A stretch of DNA of 47,303 nt. Source: Prochlorococcus sp. AG-676-M04. GTDB lineage: Bacteria; Cyanobacteriota; Cyanobacteriia; PCC-6307; Cyanobiaceae. Location: the NCBI GenBank assembly GCA_003210895.1, contig QCUB01000006.1, positions 1 through 47,303 of the forward strand, read 5' to 3'. This document shows, one piece after another, positions 37,863 to 47,227 of this stretch. Every line of letters begins with the position of its first letter. Positions within the stretch are counted from its first letter, which is position 1. Under the pieces are notes generated by a model. That model was given only the letters and a program-made list of their open reading frames with translations. It made no database searches and was not told where the DNA came from. A program made the translations under genes and the position numbers.

Positions 37863-37911
37863 GATTAACCACTTGTCATATGGTACATGTAAGAGTTAAA
37901 TTTTAATATAT

Positions 37912-37983
<72 letters not shown>

Positions 37984-38002
37984 TTCAATTTCAAATTCAT
38001 CA

Positions 38003-40448: not shown

Positions 40449-40778
40449 TCATTCTTCCTTTTCAAGAACATATTTGGTCATTAAGTTCAATGTGTTCATG
40501 CATTTATCTGCATACGTGATGAGATTAGACATTACTAATCCTTCTCCCTTGGTAAGTGCAATATTCTCTGACCAGTAACTGCAATAGTCCATGTTCTTAT
40601 CCCATCCTTCATCTCTCCCATACTTAATCTCTCTAGTTTCTTTTACTTGTTTCCAAAAGGATTCAACATCTACTTTTGTAGTGATATTTTTATCAAATTT
40701 TTCTGAATAAACAGGGGTTACAAAAGAACTCAAAATTAGAGCATAAAAGAATATATTGGATAATCTTTTTATCTTCAC
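40449..40778 (-). CDS. Exported hypothetical protein
   Basis: Signal peptide MKIKRLSNIFFYALILSSFVTPVYSEK; start overlaps the recombinase stop (ATGA-type coupling). Confidence 0.7.
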   Translation of the reverse strand: MKIKRLSNIFFYALILSSFVTPVYSEKFDKNITTKVDVESFWKQVKETREIKYGRDEGWDKNMDYCSYWSENIALTKGEGLVMSNLITYADKCMNTLNLMTKYVLEKEE

Positions 40779-41371
40779 TTAATTCCCACCTCTACTTTTT
40801 CATTATCAGCAATAATTCTTCTAATGGTTGCCAATCCTAAACCAGTTTGCTCTCTAATACTTCTATAACTTTCGCCTTCATCTCTTAATCTAAGAACTAA
40901 TTTTTCTTTTTTCTCACTTGTTTTTGGTCTACCACCAAGAGAAAGATTGTTTTCACGTCTGTAATCAACACTCATCTGCACACGTTCGCTGATCTGCTCA
41001 CGCTCCACCTGATTTAGTCCCGTTAATAAACCAATAAGAACAGGTGCGAACTTACCAAGTGCCTCAAGGTTTACCAATCCATCAAGAGTAATAACATTGA
41101 TGCCTTCTGCTTGTAAGTCATTTAATCTAGTAATTACTTCAGTTTGGGTTCTTCCTAGTCTTGAGAGAGAGCAAAGTTTAAGGGTATCGCCTTTCCTTAG
41201 TGATGCTAAACACTTCATTAGTTCAGGTCTTTCTTTTTCTGTCTTTCTTGTGCTTATTGTTTCAGAAAATATTTGATCACAACCACTTTCTTGTAACTTA
41301 GAAATCTGAGGATCTAAAACCTGAGTTCCATTGCTACTGCTGATCCTAGCGTATCCAATCACTTTGTTCAT
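40775..41371 (-). CDS. Small serine recombinase (resolvase/invertase family) with C-terminal HTH
   Basis: VIGYARISSSN, LKLCSLSRLGRTQTEVITRLNDLQAEGINVITL, ISERV, HTH GESYRSIREQTGLGLATIRRII. Confidence 0.93.
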   Translation of the reverse strand: MNKVIGYARISSSNGTQVLDPQISKLQESGCDQIFSETISTRKTEKERPELMKCLASLRKGDTLKLCSLSRLGRTQTEVITRLNDLQAEGINVITLDGLVNLEALGKFAPVLIGLLTGLNQVEREQISERVQMSVDYRRENNLSLGGRPKTSEKKEKLVLRLRDEGESYRSIREQTGLGLATIRRIIADNEKVEVGIK

Positions 41372-41613: not shown

Positions 41614-41638
41614 AAGTATAAAATAAAAACAATTATTT
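41614..41638 (+). promoter_or_regulatory. Conserved leader motif, copy 1
   Basis: AAGTATAAAATAAAAACAATTATTT upstream of paralog A1; contains TATAAAAT (-10-like). Confidence 0.6.
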
Positions 41639-41646
41639 TTTGAGTA

Positions 41647-42171
41647 ATGGCAAAAGAAACTACTCAAATAACTCGCTATTACGACGCTGTACTTCCTTAT
41701 GGCAGCGCATTTAAATTTTCAGAGAGGAAATATGAAAGTGATACTGACAAGGATCATGATGTTTCATATTCAAAAGAACATTTTGAATTAGAAAGTTCTA
41801 ACCCTGCCGATACTGTTAAAGTGGCAACTTTTTTGAGAAATAAGCAATACAAACCAAATGAAATTTTAAAAAAAGATCATTATTATGTTTGTGAATTTAC
41901 ATGGCAACCATATAGAAAGATTAAAGAATACAAGAATAGTGAAGATATTACATATGAAGGTACCGAAATTACAGAAACCAGTCATTTACTTTTTTGGATT
42001 TATTGGGATGATGATTTTAGTTGTTGGCAAAGAGCACCTGCATTTGCTTGTAGGAATGCATATTCACATACTGAGGCAGGAGATTGGATGATGAAAGAAA
42101 TTACTTCCAAAGGAAGTGAAGCGCATGATTCCGATTACTTCAAAAATGGAACACTAGAGGTTATTAAGTGA
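41647..42171 (+). CDS. Tandem paralog A1, uncharacterised family
   Basis: Core FELESSNPADTVKVATFLRN...YYVCEF...LLFWIYWDD...EAGDWMMKEITSKG...DYFKNGTLEVIK. Confidence 0.85.
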   Translation: MAKETTQITRYYDAVLPYGSAFKFSERKYESDTDKDHDVSYSKEHFELESSNPADTVKVATFLRNKQYKPNEILKKDHYYVCEFTWQPYRKIKEYKNSEDITYEGTEITETSHLLFWIYWDDDFSCWQRAPAFACRNAYSHTEAGDWMMKEITSKGSEAHDSDYFKNGTLEVIK

Positions 42172-42199
42172 AATGCTTTATGGTCTTATTTTTTAACTA

Positions 42200-42673
42200 A
42201 TGGGGAAAGAGACTTATCTTATAGAAGAATATTGGCATGATGAGGTGACTGCTTATTGTACGGCGTTCGGTATTTTGGGTGAGAGAGAAGAACCAAAAGA
42301 AGGTTTTGATCAATCAACTGACTTTAATCATCTAGAGAGTTCTTTGCCACCAGATACTATTCAAGTCGCAACTTTTTTGAACAAAGAATACTCCACAAAA
42401 AAAATATATTTTTATGTTTGCTTATTTACTGAAAAAAATTCGAAAACGCATCAAGAAAAATATTCATATTCACTCTTCTCTATAAGGTGGGAAGATAGTA
42501 TTAGTCTCTGGGAATTAATTCCTTGGTATTCTTGTTCTGTAAAATCTGAACAACCTCAACCATCTTTACATAAAGAAGCAGCAAATTGGATGATAAAAAC
42601 AATGACTACTGATGGTTGTCTAATTGCTACAGTAGAAGACTTCAAAAAAGGAAAACTAGAGATATTAATTTGA
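42200..42673 (+). CDS. Tandem paralog A2, uncharacterised family
   Basis: Core LESSLPPDTIQVATF...FYVCLF...LFSIRWED...KEAANWMIKTMTTDG...EDFKKGKLEILI. Confidence 0.85.
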   Translation: MGKETYLIEEYWHDEVTAYCTAFGILGEREEPKEGFDQSTDFNHLESSLPPDTIQVATFLNKEYSTKKIYFYVCLFTEKNSKTHQEKYSYSLFSIRWEDSISLWELIPWYSCSVKSEQPQPSLHKEAANWMIKTMTTDGCLIATVEDFKKGKLEILI

Positions 42674-42777
42674 ATATTTCTCACCTAATCAACTTTACTT
42701 TTTCGTCAGTTTTTATTTGACATCAGAACTAAACTTAGAGACATGAAACATTCTTTTATAGTTTTATTTGTTGAGTA

Positions 42778-43242
42778 ATGGTAAATGAACCTTATCAAAT
42801 AACAGAATATGTTCACGATCAGGTTATTGCTCATTGCACTGCTTTCGGACTTATAGGTAATGAACCTAAAGAAGATATAGATAATTTAATTGATTTTTAT
42901 GAATTAGAGAGTTCCAATCCACCGGATACTATTCAAGTCGCAACATTTTTTTTGGAAAAAACCTCCACAAAAAAAATATATTATTATGTCTGCTCTTTTC
43001 CGGAAGAACCTTTTAAAGCAAATCATCAAGAAGGATATTTACTTTTCTCTATTATGTGGTTGGATTCCGACAACTACTGGTCAAGAGTCCCATGGCATAG
43101 TTGTTCTGTATCATCTGAACTACCTCTCCCACCTTTACATAAAGAAGCAGCAAATTGGATGCTAAAAAGAATAACTACAAAAGGTTGTTGGAATGCTGAA
43201 GCGGATTTCTTCAAAATGGGCAAACTAGAGATATTAATTTGA
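42778..43242 (+). CDS. Tandem paralog A3, uncharacterised family
   Basis: Core ELESSNPPDTIQVATF...YYVCSF...LLFSIMWLD...KEAANWMLKRITTKG...DFFKMGKLEILI. Confidence 0.85.
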   Translation: MVNEPYQITEYVHDQVIAHCTAFGLIGNEPKEDIDNLIDFYELESSNPPDTIQVATFFLEKTSTKKIYYYVCSFPEEPFKANHQEGYLLFSIMWLDSDNYWSRVPWHSCSVSSELPLPPLHKEAANWMLKRITTKGCWNAEADFFKMGKLEILI

Positions 43243-43298
43243 AGGTAATAAAATGAAACTGATTTTAAATTTCGATTTATAAAATAAAGAATCCTCAA

Positions 43299-43724
43299 AT
43301 GTCTTATCTAAAATCTTGGATTACTTTTGGAGAAAAAATGGAAATTGGCGAGTGCGAAGAAGTTTACTATTGGGAACATGCTATTTACCCAGGTTACACC
43401 GAAGATATTTGTTTTTTGCTCCGTAAACTTGATAAGGAAAATTTTTCTCTTTCTTTAGCAACACCTCGCCGCCTATCTCTCATAGAGGATATTGAAGTAG
43501 AAGATGAAGACGATCCTTTCGTTGATACGATAGATGGAGAAGATGTTAGAAAGCAATTAGGAGAATACTATATTGGTTACGACTATGACTCGTACCCAGA
43601 TCCAGATGTTGAAAATCAAGTTACTTTTAATAAATTTGATGAAGCAAAAATAAATTTATGGTTTAAAAAAAATAAGACGCCTTTTTTATTAGAACATATA
43701 GAACCAGGGGTAAATACTATATAA
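43299..43724 (+). CDS. Hypothetical acidic protein interrupting the paralog array
   Basis: 141-aa ORF; LIEDIEVEDEDDPFVDTIDGEDV acidic tract; lacks the family core. Confidence 0.7.
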   Translation: MSYLKSWITFGEKMEIGECEEVYYWEHAIYPGYTEDICFLLRKLDKENFSLSLATPRRLSLIEDIEVEDEDDPFVDTIDGEDVRKQLGEYYIGYDYDSYPDPDVENQVTFNKFDEAKINLWFKKNKTPFLLEHIEPGVNTI

Positions 43725-43727
43725 ATT

Positions 43728-43752
43728 AGGTATAAAATAAAAACAATTATTT
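43728..43752 (+). promoter_or_regulatory. Conserved leader motif, copy 2
   Basis: AGGTATAAAATAAAAACAATTATTT upstream of paralog A4. Confidence 0.6.
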
Positions 43753-43759
43753 ATTGCAG

Positions 43760-44323
43760 TTGGGAAAAGTAAATTCTCAAATACATCGGTTTCACGCTCC
43801 TATAGATGCTTTAGTATCTGCTTTCCACAGTGGTTTATTGGAGAAACTCAATAAAGAATTCTTTATGCATGAGTCAAATTCAAATGACCATTTTGAGTTA
43901 GAAAGTTACAACACTGCTGACACGATTCCAGTTGCAACTTTTTTGAGAAATGAGCAATTACCAGATGAAATTATCAAAAAACAATATTTATATGTGTGTT
44001 CTTTTGAAAGGAAAGCAACATTAGGAGGTAGAGAAAAATTTAAGGATTACTTAGACAATGGGATGGACATTTTGGAAGCATTAGAGAAGAGTAATGAAGG
44101 TCCCGAGATTATAAAAACATGTCATTTGCTTTTTGAGATTCGGGGTGATCGGTGGAAGAATAATGATGACATTAAGTGGATGAGACTTGCTCTGTACGCT
44201 TGTGAAGATGCATCTTCACATCAAGAAGCAGCAGAGTGGATGATGAAAGAACTCACGACCAAAGGGAATGAAATGTACGACGCTGATTACTTCAAAAAAG
44301 GAACACTAGAAATATTGATTTGA
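43760..44323 (+). CDS. Tandem paralog A4, uncharacterised family (TTG start proposed)
   Basis: Core HFELESYNTADTIPVATFLRN...LYVCSF...LLFEIRGD...EAAEWMMKELTTKGNEMYDADYFKKGTLEILI; TTG at 43760 aligns with the ATG of A1. Confidence 0.83.
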   Translation: MGKVNSQIHRFHAPIDALVSAFHSGLLEKLNKEFFMHESNSNDHFELESYNTADTIPVATFLRNEQLPDEIIKKQYLYVCSFERKATLGGREKFKDYLDNGMDILEALEKSNEGPEIIKTCHLLFEIRGDRWKNNDDIKWMRLALYACEDASSHQEAAEWMMKELTTKGNEMYDADYFKKGTLEILI

Positions 44324-44491
44324 AGAAATCAAAGATATTAAAACCACCAATAGAATATTAGAAAAATAAATTTCTCTAAACTTGTGTGTCTTTAATCATT
44401 CAATTTTGTTTCTGTGAATTTCTAAGAATTTCTTGTTGCTATAGTGGATATACCAGAATCACATAAATAATCTAAATTCCAGGATTTTGAT

Positions 44492-44644
44492 ATGAGTTAT
44501 CAGTACAGACCTAAAAGCAATCAGGAAGAACACAACGAAATGATGGAGGACGAGGAAAGGTATGAGAGAATGATGCTTTCCAATAAGAACACAGAGGAGA
44601 CTCAAGTATTGAAGAAATTACAGGACTCTTCTGAAGACGAATAG
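44492..44644 (+). CDS. Small acidic hypothetical protein (50 aa)
   Basis: Below ORF-track cutoff. MSYQYRPKSNQEEHNEMMEDEERYERMMLSNKNTEETQVLKKLQDSSEDE. Confidence 0.45.
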   Translation: MSYQYRPKSNQEEHNEMMEDEERYERMMLSNKNTEETQVLKKLQDSSEDE

Positions 44645-44658
44645 AATTTAAAAAAATT

Positions 44659-44683
44659 AAGTATAAAATAAGAACAATAATTT
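44659..44683 (+). promoter_or_regulatory. Conserved leader motif, copy 3
   Basis: AAGTATAAAATAAGAACAATAATTT upstream of paralog B1. Confidence 0.6.
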
Positions 44684-44699
44684 CAGTTAGATATTTAAT

Positions 44700-45179
44700 A
44701 TGGACTCGCAAGAATTTAATTTTGAAGAAGAATTAACGAAACTTGTATTTGGGGATGATTTAGAATTTATACATGGAGAGGAATTGGAATTCGATTTTGA
44801 ACAACAGGATGCCTTTGAGTACAACAACCCAGTCGATACTGTGTGTGTTGGAAGTTATTCCGAAATAATACAAGGAACTGCTCATGGTGACTGGAAGTGT
44901 GAAAGTGATTATTATGTTTGTAAAGTTTCCAAAGAAAATGTAAAAGAATTGCAAAAAATGAAATTTCTGCAAGATCTAAAAGGTGGAGATATATATGTGC
45001 TTTTTTCTATAAGGTGGGATGATAATTGGTCGAAATATTTTAGGCAAATTTATTTAGTGAAAGAATGTGATTCTATGGAGATAGCAGAAAAATTATTACC
45101 CAGAGAATTTGCACAGGACCGTATTAAGGGTGAAGATCCTGGAGTTTATTATGATTTTCTAAAAAAATTTTTAGTTTAA
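44700..45179 (+). CDS. Tandem paralog B1, uncharacterised family (diverged clade)
   Basis: YNNPVDTVCVGSYSEIIQGTAHGDWKCESDYYVCKV...YVLFSIRWDDNWSKYFRQI...YDFLKKFLV. Confidence 0.83.
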   Translation: MDSQEFNFEEELTKLVFGDDLEFIHGEELEFDFEQQDAFEYNNPVDTVCVGSYSEIIQGTAHGDWKCESDYYVCKVSKENVKELQKMKFLQDLKGGDIYVLFSIRWDDNWSKYFRQIYLVKECDSMEIAEKLLPREFAQDRIKGEDPGVYYDFLKKFLV

Positions 45180-45203
45180 GAATATTAATTTGAAGGTAAA
45201 ATT

Positions 45204-45680
45204 TTGAAACTAATTGAATGTAACTCACAGTTTGAAGAAGAATTAACGAAGATCGTATTTGGCGATGATTTGGAATTTATTCATTCTCAACATGTTTTTG
45301 AGCAAAGTTGTTTATTTGAGGATTACAACCCAGTCGATACAAAATTTGTAGGGAAATATTCCGAAATAATACAAGGAACTGCTCATGGTGACTGGAAGTG
45401 TGAAAGTGAGTATTTCGTTTGTAGTGTTTCAAAAGAAGATATTCAAAAATTGCAAAAAATGAAATTTCTGCAAGATCTAAAAGGCGGAGATATATATGTG
45501 CTTTTTGAAATAGGTTGGGATGATAATTGGTCAAAATATTTCCGATATATTCATCTATTAGCACAATGTGATTCTATGGACTTAGCACAAAAATTTTTAC
45601 TTAGAAAATATGCACAAGATGAAATCAAAAATCAACCTTCTAAAGGTTTCTATGATTTCCTCAAAAAATTTTTAGTTTAA
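45204..45680 (+). CDS. Tandem paralog B2, uncharacterised family (diverged clade; TTG start)
   Basis: YNPVDTKFVGKYSEIIQGTAHGDWKCESEYFVCSV...YVLFEIGWDDNWSKYFRYI...YDFLKKFLV. Confidence 0.83.
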   Translation: MKLIECNSQFEEELTKIVFGDDLEFIHSQHVFEQSCLFEDYNPVDTKFVGKYSEIIQGTAHGDWKCESEYFVCSVSKEDIQKLQKMKFLQDLKGGDIYVLFEIGWDDNWSKYFRYIHLLAQCDSMDLAQKFLLRKYAQDEIKNQPSKGFYDFLKKFLV

Positions 45681-45821
45681 ATAATATTAATCTTGGAGAG
45701 GTATAGTTATAAGTTTTTTAGCAATAAATTTTTAAATGTCTTTTTTTTATGAATGTTAGATCATATCTCTACAAAAATGTATTAAACTGCCAATATCCTC
45801 CAGATTGCCCGCTATGACTGG

Positions 45822-45843
45822 GTTACACGTGAGTTACACGTGA
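45822..45843 (+). repeat. Tandem 11-bp repeat GTTACACGTGA x2
   Basis: GTTACACGTGAGTTACACGTGA, exact. Confidence 0.9.
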
Positions 45844-45967
45844 AGAAATCTGTCTAACTCTTCCCTCAAATCAACTGATATGAATATGTTTCTGGCAGTA
45901 CAAATCCCATTGACTATCGAATAGGAATAGTCAATAGGGTAAAAGTCCAGTTATAGAAACAAAAAGT

Positions 45968-46041
45968 AGGTTTCCCTCAGGTTTCCCTCAGAAATAGTGT
46001 ATTCTGATTGCAATGGTTTTCAGCATGGAGGTTTCCCTTAG
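45968..46041 (+). repeat. 11-bp repeat AGGTTTCCCTC x2 in tandem plus a third copy
   Basis: AGGTTTCCCTCAGGTTTCCCTCAG at 45968-45991 and AGGTTTCCCTTAG at 46029-46041. Confidence 0.88.
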
Positions 46042-46099: not shown

Positions 46100-46597
46100 A
46101 TGAAAAATGAAATTAATGAATTAGGTGAAAACATTGATCCTAAATTGCGTCAATTACAAAAACAATATGATGAACGAATGCAAGAATGTGGAGGCGATCC
46201 TAGAGAGTATATGCGGAGATATAATCGTCATACATTAAATATATCTGTAACTGACGAACAAATTGGAAGAGAACTATGGGAGGGTAAATCAATTACTTTT
46301 CTAAATGAAGATAATGCTTTAGCGCATATGAGTTTATTAGCAGATTTATTGGAGTTGCTTGTAAAAGAAGAAAATAACTCTTGGGGTACTGGGATTATTG
46401 ATGATGCATCAGTACAAAGAATATTAGGTTTCGTTAAGGAAAGAATTGCCCCTGAAGCAAGAAAAGGTGATCAACAGACGCCAGATTCATTAATGCCTAT
46501 TGTTGAATTAAATAATGCTATTGATAGAGAACCTTTATCTAAAGAGGAGAAATTAAAAAATTTTATTGATAGGGTTAATAATCAACCAGACGATTAA
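46100..46597 (+). CDS. Hypothetical protein (165 aa)
   Basis: Well-formed charged ORF; no recognised domain. Confidence 0.72.
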   Translation: MKNEINELGENIDPKLRQLQKQYDERMQECGGDPREYMRRYNRHTLNISVTDEQIGRELWEGKSITFLNEDNALAHMSLLADLLELLVKEENNSWGTGIIDDASVQRILGFVKERIAPEARKGDQQTPDSLMPIVELNNAIDREPLSKEEKLKNFIDRVNNQPDD

Positions 46598-46621
46598 CGG
46601 TTTCAATAATTTATTTATTAA

Positions 46622-47227
46622 ATGTTTGATCTTTTTAAAAAAAAGAAAATTATTGATTATAAGAGAGAAGGAATTGAAGGATGGAAATTCGTAGCACATT
46701 TAGACTTTTTTGAAGAGGAGAAAGGACCTTTATATAGAGATACATATCAACATATTGATGGGAGAATAACATATGTCTATGATGATCAATTTTCAGATGA
46801 TGAAACATTAGAGAAATTCATATCTAAACAAAATCTTTTAAAACAATATGAAGATAAAAGGAAAAAACAAGTTAGGAATTTTTCAAAATTTATTTTTTAT
46901 CCACATTGGTTTGTAATTTTATTTTTTTTCTTGTTTAGTTCTTTTGATTATGGAATTTACAGTTTAATAACTCTGATGGGTTATTTAATTACTTTTATTT
47001 CAAGTTTTGCATTAGGGGTAAGGTTAAATTTGTCTTACATAAATGACTTCGATTTTGAGGAAGTAAAAACTATATTTATATTAATGATTTCTTTTTTCAT
47101 AGGTTTTATTCTTGTTCAAAAAAGTGAATTAAATAATTTGGAAATTTTAAGTTTTAGGATTCCCTTTATCTTAATACCTTTTGTTTTTGGCGTATTGCGT
47201 GGAAAATTGAGTTTTTATGAAGAATAA
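46622..47227 (+). CDS. Hypothetical membrane protein (201 aa)
   Basis: Soluble N-terminal ~95 aa followed by several TM segments. Confidence 0.72.
   Translation: MFDLFKKKKIIDYKREGIEGWKFVAHLDFFEEEKGPLYRDTYQHIDGRITYVYDDQFSDDETLEKFISKQNLLKQYEDKRKKQVRNFSKFIFYPHWFVILFFFLFSSFDYGIYSLITLMGYLITFISSFALGVRLNLSYINDFDFEEVKTIFILMISFFIGFILVQKSELNNLEILSFRIPFILIPFVFGVLRGKLSFYEE

Follow-up and report, generated by a model that had tools for sequence, protein, structure and literature searches.

A protein family of Prochlorococcus found in short integrative units at the 3' end of guaA, several of which carry restriction systems

Prochlorococcus is streamlined and is not known to have the usual conjugation machinery, which raises the question of how defence genes are gained and lost in this genus. 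The Prochlorococcus tycheposons of Hackl et al. 2023 are said to use tRNA genes and to carry a tyrosine recombinase. Second-hand descriptions of tycheposons appear in PMC10872708 and PMC10654061. In other bacteria, genomic islands are known to occupy the 3' end of guaA, which holds GAGTGGGA (PMC9376610, PMC7775301); among them are GIsul2 with its CR2-sul2 unit (PMC9376610) and ICERspD18B (PMC7775301). We analysed 47,303 nucleotides of Prochlorococcus sp. AG-676-M04 (contig QCUB01000006.1; hereafter the window), in which six open reading frames (ORFs) at 41647-45680 encode one protein family. Comparison with other genomes (G numbers) and loci (L numbers) makes it reasonably likely, in our judgement, that this family is cargo which short mobile units carry from strain to strain. 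Because several of these units also carry restriction systems, the defence islands of Prochlorococcus probably have a new component in this family.

All six ORFs were confirmed and are homologous, and the ordered core that an earlier note, made from the sequence alone, had read in them lines up across all six proteins. The genes, with one ORF that lies among them, are as follows.

41647..42171, plus strand: copy 1 (W1), 174 residues (ORF list, alignment and tree)
42200..42673, plus strand: copy 2 (W2), 157 residues, the protein used for the AlphaFold2 model
42778..43242, plus strand: copy 3 (W3), 154 residues, sister in the tree to the copy in G023
43299..43724, plus strand: unrelated ORF of 141 residues between copies 3 and 4, without family match
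43760..44323, plus strand: copy 4 (W4), TTG start, in a subfamily with G002 and G027
44700..45179, plus strand: copy 5 (W5), clade B, 159 residues (alignment and profile comparison)
45204..45680, plus strand: copy 6 (W6), clade B, TTG start, 158 residues, apparently an older local duplicate of copy 5

Copies 1-4 form clade A, with 38-48% identity to copy 1, and copies 5 and 6, which are 71% identical to each other, form clade B. Homology between the clades covers the central ~75 residues only (hhalign probability 94%; E 1.7e-7 with a four-row profile and 8.5e-8 with 22 rows), and a profile built without clade B still retrieves copy 5 (E 8e-6). The shared motifs are thus homologous at a profile-profile E of about 1e-7, and the C-terminal difference between LEIL in clade A and YDFLKKFLV in clade B is genuine. 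The array does not consist of paralogs alone, for it also holds the unrelated ORF at 43299-43724. This ORF is acidic and accompanies the family in three genomes, the two besides the window's being represented by L037, a type III restriction unit, and L045.

Seven family loci sit downstream of guaA. Forty-six guaA loci were sampled, with near-complete genomes and long contigs favoured, so that the sample was not random; 13 of them were empty, with 58-94 bp between guaA and the next conserved gene, and at the others the shortest inserts were a few hundred bases long and the longest exceeded 13 kb. The guaA 3' end is an insertion hotspot. Inserts start there, and intact ones end with a copy of it, ACTATTGAGTGGGA(A/G)TAG or similar; the duplicated core comprises the last ~18 bp of guaA, ACTATTGAGTGGGAATAG, and in G004 and G030 the flank of the empty site resumes directly after the last core. 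Tandem 9-mers follow the left core at +57 and often also at +118, and the right core is preceded by a single pair of the same 9-mer at -91. The types of these arms, which include GTTACACGT, GTTTCCCGT, GTTTCCCTC, GTTTCACAC and others, vary between units and agree within a unit, with at most one mismatch between its ends. This arrangement is that of a lambda-type attP (arm-core-arm) split by integration. Pairs of arm-type 9-mers numbered 79 in 723 kb of guaA regions, counted on one strand, and 11 in 523 kb of other family regions, with strands counted separately. Two 9-mer matches on viral contigs were rejected as element ends: these contigs are of high GC content, have no core and are unrelated.

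Complete units of 1-8 kb were found in G012, G018, G021, G023, G027, G043 (two), G189 and G230, and G090 retains a cargo-free remnant of 148 bp in which the two ends stand end to end. Stacked units share one orientation. In L033, for example, two family genes and an Mrr-ResIII protein lie in a GTTACACGT unit that comes after a GTTTCCCTC unit with an Eco57I-type methylase. The defined ends, empty sites and scars make the exchange of defence genes directly testable. A literature search, with little cover of subscription journals, found no description of guaA insertions in Prochlorococcus. In four genomes (L117, L118, L132, L134), mreB-like genes, some with EPSP synthase, lie between guaA and the usual right-flank gene, which suggests rearrangement at the hotspot. 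The units carry the following cargo.

G018: a type I system
G021: a helicase-PLD protein
G023: Mrr-ResIII and a further ORF of 202 residues
G027: type III mod and res, a family gene and a relative of the ORF at 43299
G043, unit 1: an Eco57I-like methylase
G043, unit 2: Mrr-ResIII and relatives of copies 1 and 2
G189: a MUG113-domain protein
G012: an ORF of 105 residues
G230, 1,518 bp: a copy-1 relative and a clade B gene only
G089, incomplete unit: begins with a McrB-like/HNH protein

In four units the family gene is the first gene, about 225 bp past the core. On the right side of defence-carrying units, two small proteins of about 183 and 118 residues are repeatedly found as a pair (L033:6661-7562, L037, L134); inspection by eye suggests a signal peptide in at least some of them.

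A restriction gene lay within 5 kb of 12 of the 37 family loci and of 0 of the 106 non-core DUF1651 loci among the stronger matches listed for that control family (Fisher 2e-8), and a C5-methyltransferase was present in 23/34 genomes with the family and in 46/232 without it; genome relatedness, assembly fragmentation and shared hotspots affect both sets of figures. Adjacency was counted for a C5-methyltransferase or a restriction-type ResIII gene, and ResIII matches were kept only above 60 bits, a cut chosen after seeing the list because weaker matches were mostly housekeeping helicases. The arms-race or self/non-self reading of the earlier note is partly supported, in that the loci are mobile and hypervariable and have defence genes nearby more often than the control.

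In the window, the array is directly followed by the right end of a GTTACACGT unit (45821-45930), beyond which a further unit begins.

45821..45843, plus strand: right-end arm pair of the array's unit, GGTTACACGTGAGTTACACGTGA, 91 bp before the core
45913..45930, plus strand: core, a diverged copy of the guaA 3' end by sequence comparison, ACTATCGAATAGGAATAG (guaA: ACTATTGAGTGGGAATAG)
45969..45991, plus strand: left-end arm pair of the next unit, of GTTTCCCTC type, 57 bp after the core
46100..47227, plus strand: two ORFs without assigned function (165 and 201 residues) inside the next unit, which extends toward the contig end

The spacing of -91 is that of the right ends in G043, G230 and G090, and every copy-1 relative in the tree from outside the window sits in a GTTACACGT unit at guaA. 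The core in the window is diverged (GAATAGGA) and is not adjacent to guaA. Two further features had been brought into connection with the array.

40775-41371, minus strand: serine recombinase (Resolvase E 4e-26)
37911-37984: tRNA-Asn (ARAGORN)

The serine recombinase is present, as had been noted, and was rejected as the mover of the array: no other family neighbourhood compared has a relative of it, and for that reason it is not part of the arrangement. Similarly, the tRNA genes said to lie beside the island come down to this tRNA-Asn, the single tRNA in the window, 3.7 kb from the array.

The family is present in 34/266 genomes of the genus (19/87 good ones), with 1-6 copies each, the window's genome having the most. 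Of 399 genomes of the order, only G484, with a full copy, and G413, with a remnant, were found to have the family outside the genus, and named matches are all from Prochlorococcus, bar one labelled Synechococcaceae; the family is almost confined to Prochlorococcus. No relative was found in IMG/VR, phage records or plasmid records, and a viral origin was rejected on this ground. In the tree, copy 1 groups with copies of four other genomes (G082, G230, G043, G028), copy 2 falls within a group from several genomes, copies 3 and 4 join the genomes listed above, and copies 5 and 6 fall together with G230b; beyond the window's genome, clade B was found in G230 alone. Because copies 1-5 each group with copies of other genomes, the array gathers pre-existing subfamilies, and copies 5 and 6 are the sole pair that look like a local, old duplication. 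The array is thus a collection and not an amplification, and the tandem amplification proposed in the earlier note is mostly wrong.

Consistent with such gathering, the DNA of the window matches other family neighbourhoods mostly gene by gene, and in nearly every genome homology ends ~14 bp 5' of the start codon and a few bases past the stop. Three copies are preceded by a common promoter-like leader, TATAAAATAAAAACAATTATTT, with three matches in the window compared with 0.12 expected.

41617..41638, plus strand: leader TATAAAATAAAAACAATTATTT before copy 1
43731..43752, plus strand: leader TATAAAATAAAAACAATTATTT before copy 4
44662..44683, plus strand: leader TATAAAATAAAAACAATTATTT with 2 mismatches before copy 5

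In relatives of copy 1 from other genomes, a different leader is joined on at this AT-rich stretch, a swap that suggests recombination immediately ahead of start codons. A 165-residue N-terminal domain is fused to several relatives, two of which are also fused to a C-terminal region of ~430 residues that has no family match (three-part fusions of 765-768 residues, L048:205-2508 and L047:7225-9519). The start peptide M(G/A)KET is frequent at domain borders of the fusions, which again places the junction at a start codon. The AlphaFold model of the fused N-terminal domain is poor (predicted local distance difference test score, pLDDT, below 50 there), and the helix-helix-helix-four-strand order of this domain bears a likeness to an NTF2-like fold by eye only.

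Other sequence features recur in the islands. Many unrelated island genes, several family members included, have a promoter-like leader with GACAGTCGATCTA, often in the form TTGACAGTCGATCTAAA, for the most part 40-100 bp ahead of the start codon (25 instances, none in the window; L036, L038-L042, L044, L046, L047, L049, L050, L106, L108). The family stop codon often overlaps or shortly precedes TGAAACGCTTACTACT (L039, L041, L042, L046, L049, L105), the start of small proteins with a common MKRLLL signal peptide and another modular junction.

None of the six proteins matches Pfam, NCBIfam, PHROGs or PADLOC beyond chance; no SUKH or other named immunity family was matched above chance in Pfam, NCBIfam or PADLOC, and no nuclease, nucleotidase, membrane or other effector motif was found in the family proteins. 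Assignment to a housekeeping family did not emerge, and the family stands as unrecognised, as first described. An AlphaFold2 model of copy 2, from an alignment of 32 sequences, had a pLDDT of 88.9 and a predicted template modelling score (pTM) of 0.86, with the predicted element order E-H-H-E-E-E-E-H-H-E. Foldseek with this model gave no match at E <= 0.001 in PDB or BFVD, and the matches listed had query-normalised TM-scores of about 0.33 or lower. The family would be a new unit component with a predicted fold unmatched by solved or viral structures. Free-standing subfamilies have ratios of nonsynonymous to synonymous rates (dN/dS) of 0.16-0.60, which is purifying selection, and fused copies mostly of 0.4-1.2; these values give no indication of diversifying selection, save perhaps in the fused copies. 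The proteins are small, soluble and mildly acidic, with a net charge of -4 to -18 and an isoelectric point of 4.4-6.0, values not extreme enough for DNA mimicry, which was rejected. Kinship with DUF1651 (PF07864), considered for its similar C-terminal helix motif, was likewise rejected (hhalign probability 0.1), as was an Rfam sroH match, far below the gathering score and mostly on the conserved coding end of copy 4.

In the mechanism that we propose, a unit would insert via site-specific recombination at the guaA 3' end (ACTATTGAGTGGGAATAG), duplicating the core. Because no integrase is seen inside the units, the enzyme that moves them would probably be a tyrosine integrase that has its gene elsewhere and acts in trans. 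The array would be built by accretion of circulating subfamilies, with breakpoints in the AT-rich leader just before start codons, and the proteins may serve defence or shield an incoming unit from restriction. Leading-gene position, restriction neighbours and stacks of subfamilies suit either an accessory or anti-restriction protein or one with a direct part in defence; of these, we lean toward the former, with a function tied to restriction systems. The fullest form of this proposal, in which integrase-less, stackable, 9-mer-typed guaA units deal restriction systems in trans and the family is their dedicated accessory, with an undescribed fold and acting from the leading gene as an anti-restriction or defence protein that aids entry or persistence beside competing units, we regard as unlikely.

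Several observations weigh against the mechanism and role proposed. The window, which is contig 6 of a 70-contig, 1.27-Mb assembly, contains the right unit end but no left end ahead of copy 1, and this genome has its guaA elsewhere, on contig 12. The array therefore either occupies a second site, beside tRNA-Asn, or the single-cell assembly is a chimera. No such unit ends are seen at family loci away from guaA (L036, L038-L042, L044-L050), and among the neighbours examined of L036, L039 and L046 there is no recognised restriction gene. No match to Phage_integrase was found in the unit ORFs scanned, which were the larger ones of complete units and some of the rest, and the PF00589 integrase occurs, below the cut-off, in a few non-guaA family neighbourhoods only. 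Finally, the genomes behind the restriction association are not independent, and DUF1651 is a single, thin control.

These points give room to other explanations. The family genes may be neutral hitch-hikers of hypervariable islands with a physiological role in stress or nutrition that has no connection with defence, the link to restriction reflecting shared insertion hotspots, for most family loci lie in general genomic islands, several have the TTGACAGTCGATCTA leader common to many other island genes, and restriction systems and family genes both pile up downstream of guaA. However, the restriction association holds away from guaA too (G008, G073, G086, G100, G111, G016), and G043 unit 2 and G027 house family and restriction genes in one unit, so that we consider this explanation doubtful. 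We are similarly sceptical that the proteins are independent anti-phage effectors, each subfamily blocking or recognising a different phage, the stacks broadening the range and the restriction genes being mere fellow cargo. The variety of systems at the family or the site (type I, II, III, Eco57I-like, Mrr-ResIII, Nhi/AbiO-like helicase) and the differing ends of subfamilies around a common core would agree with it, but not the lack of an effector motif, of a PADLOC match and of a diversifying-selection signature in free-standing copies.

The polyimmunity reading of the earlier note, in which the locus would be of the polyimmunity or toxin-immunity kind and its products antitoxin-like immunity proteins, is very improbable, although it agrees with stacks of diverged copies whose products are small, soluble and mildly acidic, and with fusions to the 165-residue N-terminal domain and a 430-residue C-terminal region. 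No cognate or secreted polymorphic toxin, and none with matching modules, was recognised in the neighbourhoods, many of whose genes are without annotation; no immunity family in Pfam was matched, the copies are scattered over many unrelated loci, and the dN/dS range of the free-standing copies adds no specific evidence for it.

Overall, several described systems come close to what is seen here. With polyimmunity loci (SUKH and related) it shares stacked diverged paralogs of a small protein, but it has no sequence match to theirs and no toxin partner was found. Like tycheposons, the units are mobile cargo elements that remodel Prochlorococcus islands; however, they end at cores of the guaA 3' end instead of using tRNA sites, and no tyrosine recombinase was seen in them or recognised near the array in the window. 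With the guaA islands the units share insertion at the guaA 3' end, a duplicated core with GAGTGGGA and tandem att sites (attL/attLR/attR), and core copies at both ends and empty and filled sites were seen in Prochlorococcus; the guaA islands also include a unit that is mobilised by the integrase of its host island. Those islands encode an integrase of their own, often together with alpA, whereas no P4-like island-borne integrase was seen among the unit ORFs scanned, and the Prochlorococcus units have type-specific tandem 9-mer arms, a size of 1-8 kb and cargo that is often restriction genes with this family. As in defence islands with restriction-modification, varied defence gene clusters occur at a recurrent site and turn over between strains; unlike in those islands, one uncharacterised family recurs in several units and leads four of them.

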